DNA of 64,000 nucleotides, from contig NZ_JAGHRO010000003.1 of the NCBI RefSeq assembly GCF_017743735.1, positions 248,001-312,000 of the forward strand, in the 5' to 3' direction. Each line of letters opens with the position of its first letter. Positions within the stretch are counted from its first letter, which is position 1. Under the pieces are notes generated by a model. It searched no databases and was not told where the DNA came from. It was given only the letters and a program-made list of their open reading frames with translations. The DNA is from Shimia sp. R9_2 (GTDB lineage Bacteria > Pseudomonadota > Alphaproteobacteria > Rhodobacterales > Rhodobacteraceae). This document shows positions 26,646 through 32,978 of the stretch, in pieces. The position numbers were made by a program, and so were the translations under genes.

Positions 26646-27278
26646 TTAGCGGCGACGGCGCGGGCGGCATACCCGAACGTCCCAAAGCACCCAGAGGGTG
26701 ATGGCAAGTACGGCTATGCAGGTGAGCCATTTTGAAACCGTGCCCATGGTGCCCTCGATCAGAAGCGCATGCACCACGGTGGAGATCACGATGATCAGGG
26801 CCAGCGTGTTGTGCAGGATCGACCAATGCAGAAACCGCAGCGGCAGGCGCTGGCGCAGCGTGACCAACAGCGCGGTGACGATCAGCCCATAAAAGGCAAT
26901 CGCGCCATAGAGCGAAAATGGCGTAGGCGCGACCAGCAGGAGCGCATCCAAAGCATCCGGCGGGCTGGTCAGATAGAGCCCTCCAATGTGCACGGCCACG
27001 GCGATCAGGATCAGGCTGCCCGTGGCGCGGTGCCAGAGGCGGGCGCTGCGCGGGCGCAGTCCGGGTAGCTGGTTGGCCGCCAGCAAAGGTTGCACAAAAA
27101 ACAGCAGCAGCGCGATGATGCCCGCAAACCCGGCCAGGATATAGGCGAGGTTGCGATAGGCGAGATAGGGGCTTTGGGAGGCTATGATCAACGGCAACAG
27201 CAAGGCCATGCCAAGCGCACTCCAGATGAGCGCGGCCTTGCTAGGCGTGGCTATGGGCTTCTCTGTCACTTCTGCCAT
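26646..27278 (-). CDS. Ferric-reductase-like transmembrane protein
   Basis: 210 aa. About six TM helices, with His residues in the helices (LRPRSARLWHRATGSLILIAVAVHIGG, LHWSILHNTLALIIVISTVVHALL) placed like the paired haem ligands of ferric-reductase or cytochrome-b domains. No FAD/NADPH domain follows, so it is a membrane-only version. The stop of the upstream exported dioxygenase-like gene sits 1 nt before its start, so they form one transcription unit. Start ATG 27278 (MAEVTEKP). Confidence 0.8.
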   Translation of the reverse strand: MAEVTEKPIATPSKAALIWSALGMALLLPLIIASQSPYLAYRNLAYILAGFAGIIALLLFFVQPLLAANQLPGLRPRSARLWHRATGSLILIAVAVHIGGLYLTSPPDALDALLLVAPTPFSLYGAIAFYGLIVTALLVTLRQRLPLRFLHWSILHNTLALIIVISTVVHALLIEGTMGTVSKWLTCIAVLAITLWVLWDVRVCRPRRRR

Positions 27279-27279
27279 G

Positions 27280-27765
27280 CTAGGCGGGCTGCAGCACAAA
27301 ATCGACGGTGAGCGAGGTGTCTTGCGCGCTTGGCATCACCGGGCGCAGGAAGAGTGTTTTATACGCACTGTCGTCATAAGCGAGATGGGCATGCGGCTCT
27401 CCGAAGTTTGGCACGATCTGCTCCATCTCCAGACTGTAGCTGCCGTCCGCGCGGGTCAGTACCGAGCCGTGATTGCGCGGCTCACGTTCTCCGCCAAGCG
27501 TGGTTGCGGCCCAGATCTGGATGCGGGTGTTGGCAACCGGTGCGCCGTTGCCAGCGCGCAGAACGGTGCCGGAGACAATGAAACCTGAGCCGAGACGATC
27601 GACCAGCGGCGCATTGGGGCGATAGTTGTTTGAGCCGCCGCGCATGGTTTGGGTGGGTCTTAGACCTGCGGCCTGCGCGGGGGACACAAGGCCTACCGCC
27701 AGTGCTGTGCCAGCAAGACCCGCCCCGATGAGAAAGCGGCGGCGGTTGTAGTAGGGGGTATTCAT
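27280..27765 (-). CDS. Tat-exported intradiol-dioxygenase-like protein
   Basis: 161 aa. Twin-arginine signal YNRRRFLIGAGLAGTALAV (residues about 6-24), then a beta-sandwich opening with FIVSGTVLRAGNGAPVANTRIQIWAA, as in intradiol ring-cleavage dioxygenases. Those enzymes bind Fe(III) with two Tyr and two His; here the visible candidates are a single PHAHLAYDD His pair and scattered Tyr, so catalysis is uncertain. Start ATG 27765 has GGAGCCTCC upstream. It is coupled to the haem membrane protein. Confidence 0.75.
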   Translation of the reverse strand: MNTPYYNRRRFLIGAGLAGTALAVGLVSPAQAAGLRPTQTMRGGSNNYRPNAPLVDRLGSGFIVSGTVLRAGNGAPVANTRIQIWAATTLGGEREPRNHGSVLTRADGSYSLEMEQIVPNFGEPHAHLAYDDSAYKTLFLRPVMPSAQDTSLTVDFVLQPA

Positions 27766-27876
27766 GAGGAGGCTCCTTTCTCGAAAAGAACAGGTGCGGT
27801 CCTCAAAAGTGTGCCACAGCCCTGCAAGGAGAGTGCACACAAATTCGTGAGCTGCCTTGGAAAGGCAGGAGATGGC

Positions 27877-28623
27877 TTATCGCTCTGATTGCGCCTTGGC
27901 AGCGGCGCGGGCGGCCATGGCCTCTTCTCCAAGGGTCAGGGTATAGGCCGTGAGTTCAGCGAGCGCGGTGTCTGCGGCGGCGCCGTCCTGAGCCTCCAGA
28001 GCGTCTGCGATGCGGGTGTGCAAACCGATGATCACATCGCGGTTGCGCTGGGTGAAGGTGATCATGTTCATCAGGGGCTGCATCGCCTCAACTGCGCCGG
28101 CCAGTTGATAAGACAGCACCGGATTGGAAGCCCCATCCACCAGCGCGCGGTGAAAGGCCACGTCTGAATCACAAAACCGCTCGTCTGACAGGCCGGGCTG
28201 GGCCTGACGATGGATTTCGGCGCGCATGGTGGCCAGATGGTCCGGGGTGCGGCGTTTCGCTGATAGGCGCGCGCAGGCGCGCTCCAGCGCAAAGCGGGCC
28301 TCACAGGCGGTTTCAAAATCCACCGCATTCATGGAGAGCAAAAGCGTGCTGGTTGTGATATGCTGGGCAAAGGCTTCGTCATATGACAGCCTGCGCACAA
28401 AGGCCCCGCCGGAGGCGCCACGCTGTGTGCGGATCAGATTTTGCGCGGCCAGACGTTTGAGCGCTTCACGCACCGTGGGGCGGGAAACCTGAAACTGATC
28501 TGCCAGTTCTGCCTCTGAGGGCAGGCGCTCATCCACGATCATCTCCCCCGAAATGATGGCATCCCGGATCGATTTGGCGATTTGCGCCGAAAGGTCGGCG
28601 GAGCTTTTGGGGTCAATTTTCAT
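27877..28623 (-). CDS. dmdR: GntR/FadR-family (FCD) regulator, probable DmdR
   Basis: 248 aa. Winged HTH at residues 10-75 (RLPSEAELADQFQVSRPTVREALKRLAAQNLI) followed by an all-helical FCD ligand domain (about 95-230). It diverges from the dmdA-containing run; in characterised roseobacters a GntR regulator beside dmdA-acuI represses them and responds to acryloyl-CoA. ATG 28623 immediately follows one operator-like repeat and lacks a clear ribosome site; a TTG 11 codons upstream is the alternative. The gene symbol is inferred from context. Confidence 0.8.
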   Translation of the reverse strand: MKIDPKSSADLSAQIAKSIRDAIISGEMIVDERLPSEAELADQFQVSRPTVREALKRLAAQNLIRTQRGASGGAFVRRLSYDEAFAQHITTSTLLLSMNAVDFETACEARFALERACARLSAKRRTPDHLATMRAEIHRQAQPGLSDERFCDSDVAFHRALVDGASNPVLSYQLAGAVEAMQPLMNMITFTQRNRDVIIGLHTRIADALEAQDGAAADTALAELTAYTLTLGEEAMAARAAAKAQSER

Positions 28624-28667
28624 TTGTCTGACATTTAATGTTTGCTGCACCTTCAATTGTCTGACAT
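28624..28667. promoter_or_regulatory. Two tandem TTGTCTGACAT operators
   Basis: TTGTCTGACAT occurs at 28624-28634 and 28657-28667, 33 bp apart (about three helical turns), between the GntR gene and the DUF2182-to-dmdA run. TTGTC-TGACA resembles FCD-type GntR operators (TTGTCNGACAA-like), so autoregulation plus control of the divergent genes is likely. Confidence 0.65.
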
Positions 28668-28704
28668 TAAATAGGGAAATGCACGAGTCGCCAAGGGAGG
28701 GGAG

Positions 28705-29508
28705 ATGTCGCGCTTTGATTTTCTTTCCGTAAGAAGCATTTTATGGCTGAGTTTCTTTGTAGCCATTCTGGCCGCATGGTGGGTCATGTACGATATGGCC
28801 ATGTCGATGGACGTGGATCTGATCGGGCGTCCCGGAGAGATGGGCGCGCGTATGGCGGCGATGGATCCGCGCATGCCGATGTATATGCCGATGGCGAATT
28901 TCGGCCCGCTGTTCGTGATGTGGGCGGTGATGATGGCGGCGATGATGCTGCCGACCATGGTGCCCACATTGACCAATTATCAGCGCCTGATGACCTCTGC
29001 GGATGGCAGCTGGGGCGGCTGGGTTGGCGTTTTGCTGGGCTATTTGATTGTCTGGGTGGCCTTTGCGGCGGTGATCACCGGGGTGCAGCTTGCTCTGCTG
29101 TTTGGCGGCGTGATCGACATGCTCGGCATTGCGAAAAGCCCCTGGGTCTCGGCAGGTCTGCTGATCGTCGTGGGCGCGTTTCAATTCACCCGTGCCAAAG
29201 AGGTGTGCCATGGAGTGTGCCACAGCCCGATGACCTATTTCCTTGGCCACTGGCGCACCGGTTTTGACGGTGGGCTGCGCATGGGGCTTGGGCTTGGGGC
29301 CTTTTGTGTCGGCTGCTGCTGGGGCTTTATGGCGCTGGGTTTTGTCGGCGGTGTGATGAGCCTGTTGTGGATGGGCCTCGCCACGCTTTTCATGGTGCTT
29401 GAGAAACTGCCACAGATTGGCCATCGGGTGACCAAACCCATGGGCGTGGCGCTGATTGCTGGGGGTGGCGTTCTGATCGCCATGCCAAGCTTGTTTTATG
29501 GAGGATAA
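28705..29508 (+). CDS. DUF2182 integral membrane protein
   Basis: 267 aa, about six to seven TM helices. The family is described as a predicted metal-binding membrane protein. Met/His/Cys-rich segments stand out: MDPRMPMYMPMANFG and MWAVMMAAMMLP near the N-terminus and EVCHGVCHSPMTYF mid-protein, followed by FCVGCCWGFMALGF. These are soft-metal-type ligands. It is first in a run with DUF1326, DinB and dmdA (gap of 2 nt to the next gene). DUF2182 and DUF1326 genes are commonly adjacent; why they sit in a DMSP locus is unknown. Confidence 0.88.
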   Translation: MSRFDFLSVRSILWLSFFVAILAAWWVMYDMAMSMDVDLIGRPGEMGARMAAMDPRMPMYMPMANFGPLFVMWAVMMAAMMLPTMVPTLTNYQRLMTSADGSWGGWVGVLLGYLIVWVAFAAVITGVQLALLFGGVIDMLGIAKSPWVSAGLLIVVGAFQFTRAKEVCHGVCHSPMTYFLGHWRTGFDGGLRMGLGLGAFCVGCCWGFMALGFVGGVMSLLWMGLATLFMVLEKLPQIGHRVTKPMGVALIAGGGVLIAMPSLFYGG

Positions 29509-29510
29509 AC

Positions 29511-30215
29511 ATGGCTTTGGAGCGTAAACCTGACGCAGAAAAACTGCCGGTGTCACAGCGGATCGACAACCGGATGAGCAACCCCAAGCGCCGTAAGATG
29601 ACGCCGACGGAATGGGCGATCAAAGGCGAGTTGATCCTGAACTGTTCCTGCACCGTATTTTGCCCCTGCGTGGTCTCACTGGGTCAGCATCCGCCCACCG
29701 AAGGCGACTGTAAGGCCTGGATGGCGATTGCCATTGATGAGGGACATTATGAGGGCGAAGACCTGAGCGGGCTGAATGTGGGTCTGATGGTCTATATCCC
29801 GGGCAAGATGGCCGAGGGTGATTGGCGTGTGGCGGCCTATGTGGATGAGCGCGCCAGCGGCAAGGCCTATAACGGTCTGTTGCAGATTTTCTCGGGTCAA
29901 GCGGGCGGCACCACGGGCCTCTTTACCATGCTGGTGAGCGACATCTTCTCCGCTGAGCGCGAAAAGGTCGACATCATTCGGGATGGCAAGAAGCGTGCGC
30001 TCTATGTGGGTCGCAAAATTCAGGGTGAGGTGGAGATGCTGGAGGGTTCTAGCCCGGATCATCCGGTGATGATTTCCAACTCCAAATACTGGATGGGGCC
30101 GGACATCATTGCCGCTGTGGGCACGAAGTCCAAAGTGCGCGACTTTGGCCGGGTCTGGGACTTTGGCGGCAAATCCGCAGAGATCTGCCCGATTGACTGG
30201 AAAGGCCCGCGGTAA
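29511..30215 (+). CDS. DUF1326 protein with N-terminal Cys cluster
   Basis: 234 aa. The N-terminal hallmark NCSCTVFCPC has Cys45, 47, 51 and 53 (CxCxxxCPC), with another Cys at 67, a likely metal or redox centre. The rest is a soluble alpha/beta domain ending with CPIDWKGPR. No signal peptide is evident. Start ATG 29511; an alternative in-frame ATG at residue 30 (MTPTEWAIKG) is closer to some homologues. The stop overlaps the next start by 1 nt (TAATG). Confidence 0.88.
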   Translation: MALERKPDAEKLPVSQRIDNRMSNPKRRKMTPTEWAIKGELILNCSCTVFCPCVVSLGQHPPTEGDCKAWMAIAIDEGHYEGEDLSGLNVGLMVYIPGKMAEGDWRVAAYVDERASGKAYNGLLQIFSGQAGGTTGLFTMLVSDIFSAEREKVDIIRDGKKRALYVGRKIQGEVEMLEGSSPDHPVMISNSKYWMGPDIIAAVGTKSKVRDFGRVWDFGGKSAEICPIDWKGPR

Positions 30216-30730
30216 TGATTTCGCCTGCGTACTGTCAGATGATGGCGCGTTATAATGCTTGGCAAAACAGTCAGTTGCGCAATGTTTGCGACACTTTGAG
30301 CGATGCAGAGCTGCGCGAGGATCGCGGGGCATTTTTTGGATCGATCATGGCGACGCTGAACCACATTCTGTGGGGCGATACCCTGTGGATCAGCCGTCTG
30401 GACGGGGGCGCAGGGCCCAAATGGCCTGCCAAACAGCACGCGGATCTCTGTGCGACCTATGCTCTTTGGTCTGAAGAGCGCTTGGCCGTGGACCGGCGGA
30501 TCGCCGCGTGGGCCGAGGCGCTGCGCGCGGAGGATCTGGAAGGCGATCTGAAATGGCACGCCCAAATGCTGAACGCGGATATGCAAAAACCGGTTGCGCA
30601 ATGTGTGGTGCAACTTTTTAACCACCAGACCCATCACCGTGGCCAGATCCATGCCATGCTGACCAGCATTGGACATGATCCCGGCGATACAGATGTGGCG
30701 TTGTTGCCGGAGGGCGCGACATGGCTTTGA
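30215..30730 (+). CDS. DinB-family protein
   Basis: 171 aa, four-helix DinB/YfiT fold. The metal triad is visible: His50 in ATLNHILWGD, and His137 with His141 in NHQTHHRGQIH. DinB-family members include thiol S-transferases that use bacillithiol or mycothiol, but most are unassigned. The gene is translationally coupled to DUF1326, and its last 10 nt overlap dmdA, so it is part of the dmdA run. A role in handling an electrophile such as acrylate is only an inference. Confidence 0.88.
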   Translation: MISPAYCQMMARYNAWQNSQLRNVCDTLSDAELREDRGAFFGSIMATLNHILWGDTLWISRLDGGAGPKWPAKQHADLCATYALWSEERLAVDRRIAAWAEALRAEDLEGDLKWHAQMLNADMQKPVAQCVVQLFNHQTHHRGQIHAMLTSIGHDPGDTDVALLPEGATWL

Positions 30731-31824
30731 TTTCTCCATCCCGGCGCCTGCGCCGCACGCCGTTCTCCGACGGTGTCGAAGCTGCCGGTGTGAAAGCCTA
30801 CACCGTTTACAACCGTATGCTTCTGCCGACGGTGTTCCGTTCGGTTGAGGAAGATTACCGTCACCTTAAGACTGCGGTACAAGTCTGGGATGTGGCCGTG
30901 GAGCGGCAGGTGGAACTGCGTGGACCGGATGCCGGACGTCTGATGCAGATGCTGACCCCACGCGATCTACGCTCGATGTTGCCAGGCCAGTGTTTCTATG
31001 TGCCGATAGTCGATGAGACCGGCGGAATGCTGAATGATCCGGTGGCGGTGAAGCTGGCTGAAGACCGCTGGTGGATTTCCATTGCCGACAGTGATCTGCT
31101 GTTCTGGGTCAAGGGCATTGCCTATGGCTATCGTCTGGATGTGCTGGTGGATGAGCCGGATGTGAGCCCGCTGGCGGTGCAAGGCCCCAAGGCCGAAGAG
31201 CTGATGGTGCGGGTGTTTGGCGACAAGATCCGTGACGTGAAATTTTTCCGCTTTGGCTGGTTTGATTTTCAGGGCCGCAATCTGGTGGTGGCGCGCTCGG
31301 GCTACTCCAAACAGGGCGGGTTTGAGATCTATGTGGAAGGCAGCGACATTGGCATGCCCCTGTGGAACGCGCTTATGGAAGCGGGCAAGGATCTGGATGT
31401 GCACGCGGGCTGTCCCAATCTGATTGAACGGATTGAGGGCGGATTGCTGAGCTATGGCAATGACATGACCGATGACAACACGCCCCATGAATGCGGGCTT
31501 GGGCGGTTCTGTAACACAAACACCGCGATTGGCTGTGTCGGGCGCGATGCATTGTTGCGGGTGGCACAGGAAGGGCCGGTGCGTCAGATCCGGCCGATTG
31601 AAATCCATGGGGAGGCCGTGCCGCCCTGTGACCGGCTCTGGCCGGTGATGGATGGAGATCAGCATGTGGGCAATGTGAGCAGTGCAGCCTGGTCGCCGGA
31701 CTTTAACACCAATGTGGCCATCGGCATGGTGCGCATGACCCATTGGAATGGCGGTACCGAGCTGGATGTACTGACACCGGATGGGGTGCGTGCGGTCACG
31801 GTCTGGGAAGCTTTCTGGAGCTGA
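30721..31824 (+). CDS. dmdA: Dimethylsulfoniopropionate demethylase DmdA
   Basis: 367 aa, GcvT-like tetrahydrofolate methyl-acceptor fold. DmdA moves a methyl group from DMSP to THF, giving methylmercaptopropionate. The N-terminus SRRLRRTPFSDGVEAAGVKA and the motifs GCPNLIERIEGGLLSYGND (from about residue 230) and HECGLGRFCN agree closely with Ruegeria DmdA, as recalled. Ordinary GcvT proteins lack these. It overlaps DinB by 10 nt. acuI follows after 105 nt. This anchors the locus as DMSP catabolism. Confidence 0.94.
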   Translation: MALISPSRRLRRTPFSDGVEAAGVKAYTVYNRMLLPTVFRSVEEDYRHLKTAVQVWDVAVERQVELRGPDAGRLMQMLTPRDLRSMLPGQCFYVPIVDETGGMLNDPVAVKLAEDRWWISIADSDLLFWVKGIAYGYRLDVLVDEPDVSPLAVQGPKAEELMVRVFGDKIRDVKFFRFGWFDFQGRNLVVARSGYSKQGGFEIYVEGSDIGMPLWNALMEAGKDLDVHAGCPNLIERIEGGLLSYGNDMTDDNTPHECGLGRFCNTNTAIGCVGRDALLRVAQEGPVRQIRPIEIHGEAVPPCDRLWPVMDGDQHVGNVSSAAWSPDFNTNVAIGMVRMTHWNGGTELDVLTPDGVRAVTVWEAFWS

Positions 31825-31929: not shown

Positions 31930-32922
31930 ATGTTTAAGGCATTGGTGATGACGCAGGGTGAGGATGGTCTTGCCAGCGGGGCCATTCAGGAGCTGGATGA
32001 GAGCCAGCTGCCTGAAGGAAATGTGACCGTTGCGGTGGAATATTCCACGGTGAACTACAAAGACGGGCTGTGCCTGTCCCCCAAAGGCGGCGGGCTGGTG
32101 CGCGCCTATCCGCATGTGCCGGGCATTGATTTTGCCGGCACCGTGGAGAGCTCTGAGGATGAGCGCTACAAGCCGGGCGACAAGGTTGTGCTGACCGGCT
32201 GGCGCGTGGGTGAGGTGCATTGGGGCGGCTACGGCCAGAAAGCCCGTGTAAAAGCCGATTGGCTGGTGCCGCTGCCGGAAGGGCTGAGCACCAAACAGGC
32301 CATGGCTGTGGGCACGGCGGGCTTTACCTCCATGCTGTCGGTGATGGCGCTTGAGGATCACGGTGTGACACCTGAGAAAGGTCCGGTTCTGGTGACCGGT
32401 GCGGCGGGGGGCGTTGGCTCTGTGGCCGTGGCGATTTTGGCCAACCTTGGGTATGAGGTGGCCGGTGTCACCGGGCGTCCAGAGACAGCTGACTATCTGA
32501 AATCGCTGGGCGTGAGCCAGATTGTGGCGCGTGAGGAGCTGAATGAAACCGTGAAACGCCCACTGGAAACAGAGACATGGGCAGGGTGTGTTGACGCCGT
32601 GGGTGGCGAGATGCTGGCGCGGGTGCTGGGCCAGATGAAATATGGCGGCTCGGTTGCCGCTGTGGGTCTTGCCGGTGGTGCAGGTCTGCCTGCAACCGTG
32701 ATCCCCTTCCTGCTGCGCGGTGTGAACCTCTTAGGCATCGACTCTGTGATGCGTCCGTATGAAGACCGCGTGCGCGCCTGGCAGCGGATTGCCAGCGATC
32801 TGCCGATGGAGAAGCTGGAAGCAATGGTGAAGCCTGCGAATTTGTCGGATCTGCCGCAACTGGGCGCCGATATTCTCAAAGGTCAGGTTCAGGGGCGTGT
32901 CGTGGTGGATGTGAACACCTAA
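31930..32922 (+). CDS. acuI: Acryloyl-CoA reductase AcuI (MDR family)
   Basis: 330 aa. A zinc-independent, NADPH-dependent medium-chain reductase converting toxic acryloyl-CoA to propionyl-CoA. N-terminal GroES-like half (STVNYKDGLCLSPKGG, HVPGIDFAGTV), Rossmann motif VTGAAGGVGSVAVAIL near residues 156-172, then GVNLLGIDSVM. Members of this yhdH-like group beside dmdA are AcuI. Start ATG 31930 has GGAGAGATGAG upstream. A TGCGCC-N10-GGCGCA inverted repeat lies at 31890-31911, just upstream. Confidence 0.93.
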   Translation: MFKALVMTQGEDGLASGAIQELDESQLPEGNVTVAVEYSTVNYKDGLCLSPKGGGLVRAYPHVPGIDFAGTVESSEDERYKPGDKVVLTGWRVGEVHWGGYGQKARVKADWLVPLPEGLSTKQAMAVGTAGFTSMLSVMALEDHGVTPEKGPVLVTGAAGGVGSVAVAILANLGYEVAGVTGRPETADYLKSLGVSQIVAREELNETVKRPLETETWAGCVDAVGGEMLARVLGQMKYGGSVAAVGLAGGAGLPATVIPFLLRGVNLLGIDSVMRPYEDRVRAWQRIASDLPMEKLEAMVKPANLSDLPQLGADILKGQVQGRVVVDVNT

Positions 32923-32947
32923 CACACACCGAGAGTGAACGTATCAG

Positions 32948-32978
32948 GGCATCCCTCCGGGGGTGCCTTTTCTTTTTT
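32948..32978 (+). terminator. acuI terminator
   Basis: GGCATCCC-TCCG-GGGGTGCC followed by TTTTCTTTTTT, 25 nt after the acuI stop. A textbook intrinsic terminator closing the DMSP unit. Confidence 0.92.

Follow-up and report, generated by a model that had tools for sequence, protein, structure and literature searches.

Putative metal-handling genes at the head of the dmdA-acuI locus in Shimia sp. R9_2 and related bacteria

Gene order and upstream sites

The locus described here lies in a 64,000-nucleotide stretch of the genome of Shimia sp. R9_2 (contig NZ_JAGHRO010000003.1, positions 248,001 to 312,000 of the forward strand), which is called the window and numbered from its first letter. Five genes were arranged head to tail on its forward strand, in the order PpoB2, DUF1326, DinB, dmdA and acuI, with a GntR/FCD regulator (PF00392 and PF07729) divergent upstream. 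The first gene (28705..29508) encoded a PpoB2-type integral membrane protein (PF09948, formerly DUF2182; 204 bits, Pfam cut-off 28.7), the second (29511..30215) a DUF1326 protein (PF07040; 166.9 bits, Pfam cut-off 25) and the third (30215..30730) a DinB-family protein (PF05163; 94.2 bits, cut-off 23). These were followed by dmdA, the dimethylsulfoniopropionate (DMSP) demethylase (30721..31824; NF009133, 691.6 bits, NCBIfam equivalog cut-off 410), and by acuI, the acrylyl-coenzyme A (CoA) reductase (31930..32922), which passed its equivalog cut-off of 440 narrowly (NF051456, 443.1 bits; TIGR02823, 457.5 bits). In many Roseobacter-type bacteria, the DMSP operon begins in this way, with two or three uncharacterised proteins that probably bind metal.

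A first-pass annotation of the letters alone had placed a membrane protein, a CxCxxxCPC protein and a DinB metal-triad protein beside a GntR regulator, leading into dmdA through a 2-nucleotide gap, a 1-nucleotide overlap and a 10-nucleotide overlap. The profile matches bore out the four identities and the open reading frame coordinates reproduced the spacing exactly; the label DUF2182 has since been updated, the current Pfam name being 'PpoB2, copper chaperone'. Among named relatives, the one closest to the DUF1326 protein belonged to Shimia sp. R10_1 (99% identity).

A motif search identified two forward-strand copies of TTGTCTGACATTWAA ahead of PpoB2, namely TTGTCTGACATTTAA at 28624–28638 and TTGTCTGACATTAAA at 28657–28671, where 0.01 were expected in the window. 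When the whole 4.47-Mb genome was searched with at most one mismatch, these two operator sites were the only ones found, while the reversed-pattern control gave one match. They also bear on the start of the regulator (27877..28623, reverse strand): the open reading frame list began it at TTG 28656, which would place the first operator copy, starting at 28624, inside the coding sequence, so that ATG 28623 is the likelier start.

Among 179 GntR-operon regions from related loci, the core TGTCNGACA was exact in 132, carried one mismatch in 13 and two to four mismatches in 26, while eight could not be cut out; the 179 regions include some duplicate loci and were cut by script, which probably missed the intergenic stretch in some regions besides the eight failures. 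A shuffled control, preserving single-base composition only, produced no exact match among the 179 and 21 with one mismatch. In seven loci the GntR gene faced dmdA with neither PpoB2 nor DUF1326 between them (DinB lay between in one), and the site was exact in five of these and had one mismatch in two. The same site therefore precedes dmdA whether or not the leading genes intervene, in keeping with their inclusion in one transcription unit.

Downstream of acuI, a terminator-like hairpin of 10 pairs with a T-rich tail was located at 32946..32969 (forward strand). The region contained six terminator-like matches against 3.2 (standard deviation 1.7) in shuffles, so the hairpin is regarded as a consensus match only.

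Conservation around dmdA

Conservation was surveyed in 345 genomes representing 344 genera of the family, or about one per genus, among which DUF1326 occurred in 180, PpoB2 in 185, SBP56 in 106 and dmdA, at scores above its cut-off, in 146. A single dmdA place was mapped in each genome, giving 141 loci (140 fetched, plus the window), with G120, G146, G172, G310 and G314 left out of the mapping. Counts of genes 'near' dmdA, which rest on profiles built from the same loci and on fixed bit thresholds, were 113 for DUF1326, 112 each for PpoB2 and acuI, 100 for GntR and 63 for DinB. The modal order, with GntR divergent from PpoB2, DUF1326, DinB, dmdA and acuI, was found in 45 of the 141 loci and the same order without DinB in 31, a total of 76; most other loci were variants of it, and 14 showed dmdA alone. 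DinB, near dmdA in fewer than half of the loci, is therefore optional, and the trio is not a fixed unit.

Eighty further loci were picked by similarity to the DUF1326 protein of the window, and the stretch examined contained dmdA in 74 and acuI in 77; these are the closest relatives rather than an independent sample, they overlap the fetched set and at least five are likely duplicates (L199, L212, L227, L244, L254). Joins of 20 nucleotides or less, measured from start codons picked by script, were the rule between DUF1326 and DinB (69/69) and between DinB and dmdA (53/57). The other joins were looser: 62 of 135 for PpoB2-DUF1326, 10 of 54 for DUF1326-dmdA where DinB was missing, and 37 of 97 for dmdA-acuI.

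At the level of whole genomes, DUF1326 of either subtype (see below) was present in 124 of 146 genomes with dmdA and in 56 of 199 others (odds ratio 14, p = 1e-26, a nominal value as the genomes are related). The first-pass annotation had remarked that DUF2182 and DUF1326 often co-occur; in this family, PpoB2 was present in all 180 genomes with DUF1326, and only 5 of 185 PpoB2 genomes were without DUF1326.

Association with acuI and acyl-CoA genes

DUF1326 sequences were divided into a close subtype, scoring at least 300 bits against a profile built for this analysis, and a distant subtype (12 loci). The close subtype also numbered 141 loci, a set distinct from the 141 dmdA loci. It had dmdA nearby in 113 loci, with AcuI downstream in 101 of those, and PpoB2 within 1.5 kb in 138 of the 141. 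The other 28 loci were without neighbouring dmdA; of these, 22 retained AcuI downstream within 1.8 kb and two had it divergent (L169, L170), while the remaining four either met a contig edge (L143, L146) or had no acuI (L150, L175). All 28 had PpoB2 at a distance of 1.5 kb or less, and 13 had DinB nearby. The 40 DUF1326 regions without neighbouring dmdA are a subset drawn from the listed places, and include second copies and loci with dmdA elsewhere in the genome (L176, L177).

Coupling to dmdA alone was therefore rejected, and the module appears to be at least as much a companion of acuI as of dmdA. The first-pass annotation had named scattering of the trio independently of dmdA as evidence against its proposal; DUF1326 and PpoB2 were near most of the 141 dmdA loci, and the 28 loci without dmdA represent such scattering in part. 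Its suggestion that the genes handle reactive products of DMSP breakdown gains support, the module's other lasting neighbour being the acrylyl-CoA reductase.

In a quick tree of 150 DUF1326 sequences, whose long branches were distrusted by the tree program, adjacency to dmdA changed 22 times (shuffled mean 31.7), with at least eight changes on well-supported branches; changes in acuI were not counted. The distant subtype showed the reversed order, DUF1326-PpoB2, in 11 of its 12 loci.

Of 385 genomes sampled across the class, 48 gave a match at E <= 1e-20 and 13 of these carried the close subtype (four within the family and nine outside), the break being read from the scores (at least 295 bits against at most 161). 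Outside the family, an AMP-forming acyl-CoA ligase lay directly 3' of the PpoB2-DUF1326 pair in five loci (L268, L269, L271, L272, L273) and 3' of dmdA in two (L267, L270); NF006020 was its best model in six of these seven, L273 being recognised by phmmer only. The same type of ligase was found near dmdA on the same strand in 14 family loci at more than 460 bits (e.g., L034, L054, L072, L075), or 17 when any match was counted. It scored far below the cut-off for 3-(methylthio)propionyl-CoA ligase, and this PRK08162/NF006020-type enzyme may be a second kind of methylmercaptopropionate- or acrylate-CoA ligase. The theme shared by the module's neighbours, dmdA, ligase and acuI, is small acyl-CoA chemistry. 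The cupin DMSP lyase PF16867 was not found in the Shimia genome; other lyase types were not searched for. A divergent open reading frame cluster proposed by automatic grouping (L146:5609-6508) was dropped, having no Pfam match and only three loci on direct search.

Conserved residues and predicted folds

Cysteines 45, 47, 51, 53 and 67 of DUF1326 were present in all 141 close-subtype sequences; C45, C47, C51 and C67 were also invariant across 42 diverse sequences, where C53 occurred in at least 90%. A search of solved structures with the sequence returned nothing useful (one chain at E 0.84). The AlphaFold model (predicted local distance difference test, pLDDT, 92.5; predicted template modelling score, pTM, 0.83) had its best solved fold matches in the acetoacetate decarboxylase superfamily (3bgt, MppR 4jmd, 4zbt), with a Foldseek E of 2.3e-5 and a VIA Z of up to 11.0 (3.8 Å over 161 residues). 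Twelve entries of this superfamily scored between 10.3 and 11.0 by VIA and the next rows at most 8.5, so that an acetoacetate-decarboxylase-like barrel is predicted for DUF1326. The superfamily usually works through a Schiff-base lysine. DUF1326 would share the barrel but differs in its five invariant cysteines and in having no conserved lysine, whether at the level of 97% or more of the 141 close sequences or as an invariant residue in the 42, which makes the usual Schiff-base chemistry unlikely.

In PpoB2, five cysteines (C168, C172, C201, C204, C205) and five methionines (M72, M76, M80, M81, M209) were kept in at least 98% of 151 homologues. The predicted model (pLDDT 88) was all-helical save for isolated bridges, and the sequence matched no chain among solved structures at E <= 1. 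Together, the copper-chaperone family of PpoB2 and the invariant cysteines of DUF1326 strengthen the earlier suggestion that the genes handle a metal.

The histidine triad characteristic of DinB was kept in the DinB protein, with H50 in 100% of 75 homologues and H137 and H141 in 97% each. Its sequence matches in PDB were weak and without stated function ('DinB-like Protein' 3di5, 'Uncharacterized protein yizA' 2qe9).

Comparison with described systems

The arrangement of dmdA directly upstream of acuI, as seen here, is found in most Roseobacters (Todd et al. 2012, PMC3338564), and in Ruegeria pomeroyi the two genes are co-regulated and induced by acrylate, according to the accessible parts of that paper and of PMC5395565 and PMC9769926. 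In the accessible text of PMC3338564, no discussion was found of the genes preceding dmdA-acuI. The ppoB1-ppoB2 tyrosinase operon of Marinomonas mediterranea likewise combines a PpoB2-family membrane protein with a partner, and the accessible part of a review (PMC2855505) has PpoB2 passing copper to the tyrosinase; in the window operon, by contrast, the partner is DUF1326 and there is no tyrosinase.

Two plasmids resembled the window more closely. On pMaD9 of Marinovum algicola DG 898 (CP010864), the pair is labelled 'Transmembrane protein involved in DMSP breakdown' and 'protein involved in DMSP breakdown'. The same row has a 'Transcriptional regulator' in divergent orientation, an acyl-CoA synthetase, 'DMSP demethylase (DmdA)', 'Alcohol dehydrogenase' and SBP56. 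These depositor labels indicate that the neighbourhood had already been noticed at the level of annotation; relative to the window, no DinB gene is listed, and the acyl-CoA synthetase and methanethiol oxidase are extra. Antarctobacter heliothermus plasmid pSMS3-2 (NZ_CP022542) carries a divergent GntR, DUF2182, DUF1326, dimethylsulfoniopropionate demethylase and MDR oxidoreductase in a row, again with no DinB gene listed and with the pair annotated only as domains of unknown function. Openly licensed full-text literature, which leaves subscription journals mostly outside, contained no mention of DUF1326, DUF2182 or 'involved in DMSP breakdown', and nothing relevant linking dmdA with DinB. What is new here is that the coupling is systematic and that the module is retained with acuI, together with the operator-like site and the fold prediction; the linkage of dmdA and acuI was known before.

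More distant DUF1326 proteins were viewed in plasmid regions, where neighbours were mixed (siderophore transport, cobalamin synthesis, amidase, CopC, phosphate transport and others), and such contexts suggest metals only weakly. One distant DUF1326 had CopC and a metal-sensitive regulator as neighbours, in a region that listed no DUF2182. A plasmid of Rhodococcus sp. M8-50, from nitrile-contaminated soil, carried a distant DUF1326-DUF2182 pair 3' of an aliphatic amidase and near an acetate--CoA ligase (L297:1400-6526), possibly another acrylate context. In Novosphingobium sp. ES2-1, a distant plasmid-borne pair had a TonB receptor/PepSY protein on one side and cobalamin biosynthesis genes on the other (L298:1229-10378), hinting at metals besides copper.

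Interpretation

These patterns were best explained, with a probability of roughly 40%, by a role in which a five-gene DMSP/acrylate operon under GntR control begins with these three genes, PpoB2 loads a soft metal onto DUF1326, DUF1326 serves the acrylate/acyl-CoA side of the pathway and DinB is optional. We infer that GntR controls the operon as an acrylate sensor: an acrylate- or DMSP-derived signal would release it from its two operator copies, after which one message would encode all five proteins. The Met/Cys-rich membrane helices of PpoB2 would then capture a soft metal, most likely Cu(I), copper being the likeliest metal by analogy, and pass it to DUF1326, its near-obligate partner. From their near-perfect co-occurrence, their proximity and the conservation of thiol and thioether residues, the two proteins most likely behave as a metal donor and a dedicated acceptor. 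The cysteines of the CxCxxxCPC...C pattern would hold the metal in or beside the barrel, and the loaded protein would bind or act on a small acid or an acyl-CoA from the acrylate/DMSP route; its ties to acuI, dmdA and acyl-CoA ligases suggest a probable role in acting on, or protecting, the part of DMSP catabolism that involves acrylate and acyl-CoA. The metal would thus serve the same pathway from which AcuI clears a toxic intermediate, with DinB as an optional metal-dependent helper, perhaps a thiol transferase.

Several results weigh against this role. DUF1326 was missing from 22 of 146 dmdA genomes, and so is not needed for DMSP demethylation everywhere. The 12 distant-subtype loci of the family had neither dmdA nor AcuI nearby, and among the nine outside-family genomes with the close subtype (one of them only 64% complete), two had dmdA adjoining the pair and one had acuI in its vicinity. 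Sixteen of the 18 plasmid regions viewed, from 118 records with a match of which 60 were listed, carried distant DUF1326, mostly without a clear link to copper, DMSP or acrylate. Foldseek TM-scores for the DUF1326 model were low (~0.4; root-mean-square deviation at least 9 Å), so that its likeness to the superfamily is distant, a resemblance of models and no proof of descent; with the PpoB2 model, Foldseek found no solved relative (best E 0.77), and the copper role of PpoB2 comes from one distant homologue. Co-transcription with dmdA, which had earlier been held almost certain, is favoured by conserved order, overlaps, an operator before the first gene and the hairpin after acuI; a simple scan, however, recognised nothing promoter-like upstream of PpoB2 and picked up three more terminator-like matches on the operon strand, about the shuffle number, inside the genes (29290, 30311, 30314).

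DMSP, a sulfur compound of algae, is one of the main currencies of marine sulfur, and its demethylation and cleavage branch at the dmdA-acuI operon. If the leading genes load and use a metal, DMSP/acrylate turnover would be tied to trace copper or another soft metal, a dependence absent from the models seen, and the locus would offer a first clue to the function of DUF1326 and of its pairing with PpoB2, which is found across bacteria and archaea. The metal prediction is directly testable in culturable Roseobacters. A bolder form would see in DUF1326 a new class of metal-thiolate enzyme, built on an acetoacetate-decarboxylase-like fold and matured by a dedicated PpoB2 metal chaperone, that catalyses an unrecognised acrylate/DMSP step in more than 100 Rhodobacteraceae/Roseobacteraceae genera. 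This is rather unlikely; were it true, DMSP breakdown would be copper-dependent by a route other than methanethiol oxidase.

Alternative explanations

The module might instead buffer thiol and metal stress without catalysis. Acryloyl-CoA and methanethiol would consume or bind cellular thiols and copper, and PpoB2 and DUF1326, with DinB, might sequester Cu(I) and protect thiols for as long as the pathway is active. This is a credible but doubtful alternative, consistent with the Cys/Met conservation of both proteins, with the optional status of DinB and with a lasting neighbour, acuI, that removes a toxic CoA ester; the predicted ligand-pocket-type fold, which a buffer would not need, is weak counter-evidence.

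It is unlikely that the pair is of general purpose and merely occupies a well-regulated operon, with no biochemical tie to DMSP or acrylate. Distant DUF1326, mostly paired with DUF2182, does occur in unrelated neighbourhoods of proteobacteria, actinobacteria, a cyanobacterium and archaea. However, 113 of the 141 close-subtype loci retain dmdA, 22 of the remaining 28 retain acuI, and the well-supported changes of dmdA adjacency in the quick tree argue against passive carriage.

Very little probability was given to DUF1326 being a metal-free enzyme of acetoacetate decarboxylase type that uses a lysine Schiff base, with PpoB2 moving an organic substrate or aiding folding. The model-based superfamily matches (VIA Z 10–11) would accord with such an enzyme, but Schiff-base chemistry is disfavoured by the missing lysine, and the invariant cysteines and the assignment of PpoB2 as a copper chaperone point elsewhere.

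Least probable is a supply of copper to the methanethiol oxidase MtoX (SBP56, PF05694), described as copper-dependent in the accessible parts of PMC5739008 and PMC10936201: SBP56 lies in the dmdA neighbourhood of 18 loci (17 distinct) and on pMaD9, and is associated with DUF1326 overall (84 of 106 SBP56 genomes vs 96 of 239 others) and weakly among dmdA-less genomes (p = 0.045), but no association was seen among dmdA genomes (p = 0.25), and of the 124 genomes that carry dmdA together with DUF1326, 51 have no oxidase. The Shimia genome (completeness 100) gave no PF05694 match, which excludes this form of the metal idea here, and as a general purpose it was rejected as well.

Other neighbouring genes

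SBP56/MtoX was observed near dmdA in L017, L031, L104 and 15 similarity-picked loci (L244 duplicating L017), as well as at L293:11457-12854. Following SBP56 in L293 was a hydrophobic protein of 218 amino acids with no Pfam match, a relative of which occurred in 17 of the 18 SBP56 loci. Beyond the GntR gene in the window, positions 26646–27840 encoded a weakly dioxygenase-like protein with a twin-arginine translocation (Tat) signal and a ferric-reductase-like membrane protein; this pair adjoined the operon in 2 of the 80 loci chosen by DUF1326 similarity and in none of 180 fetched regions.

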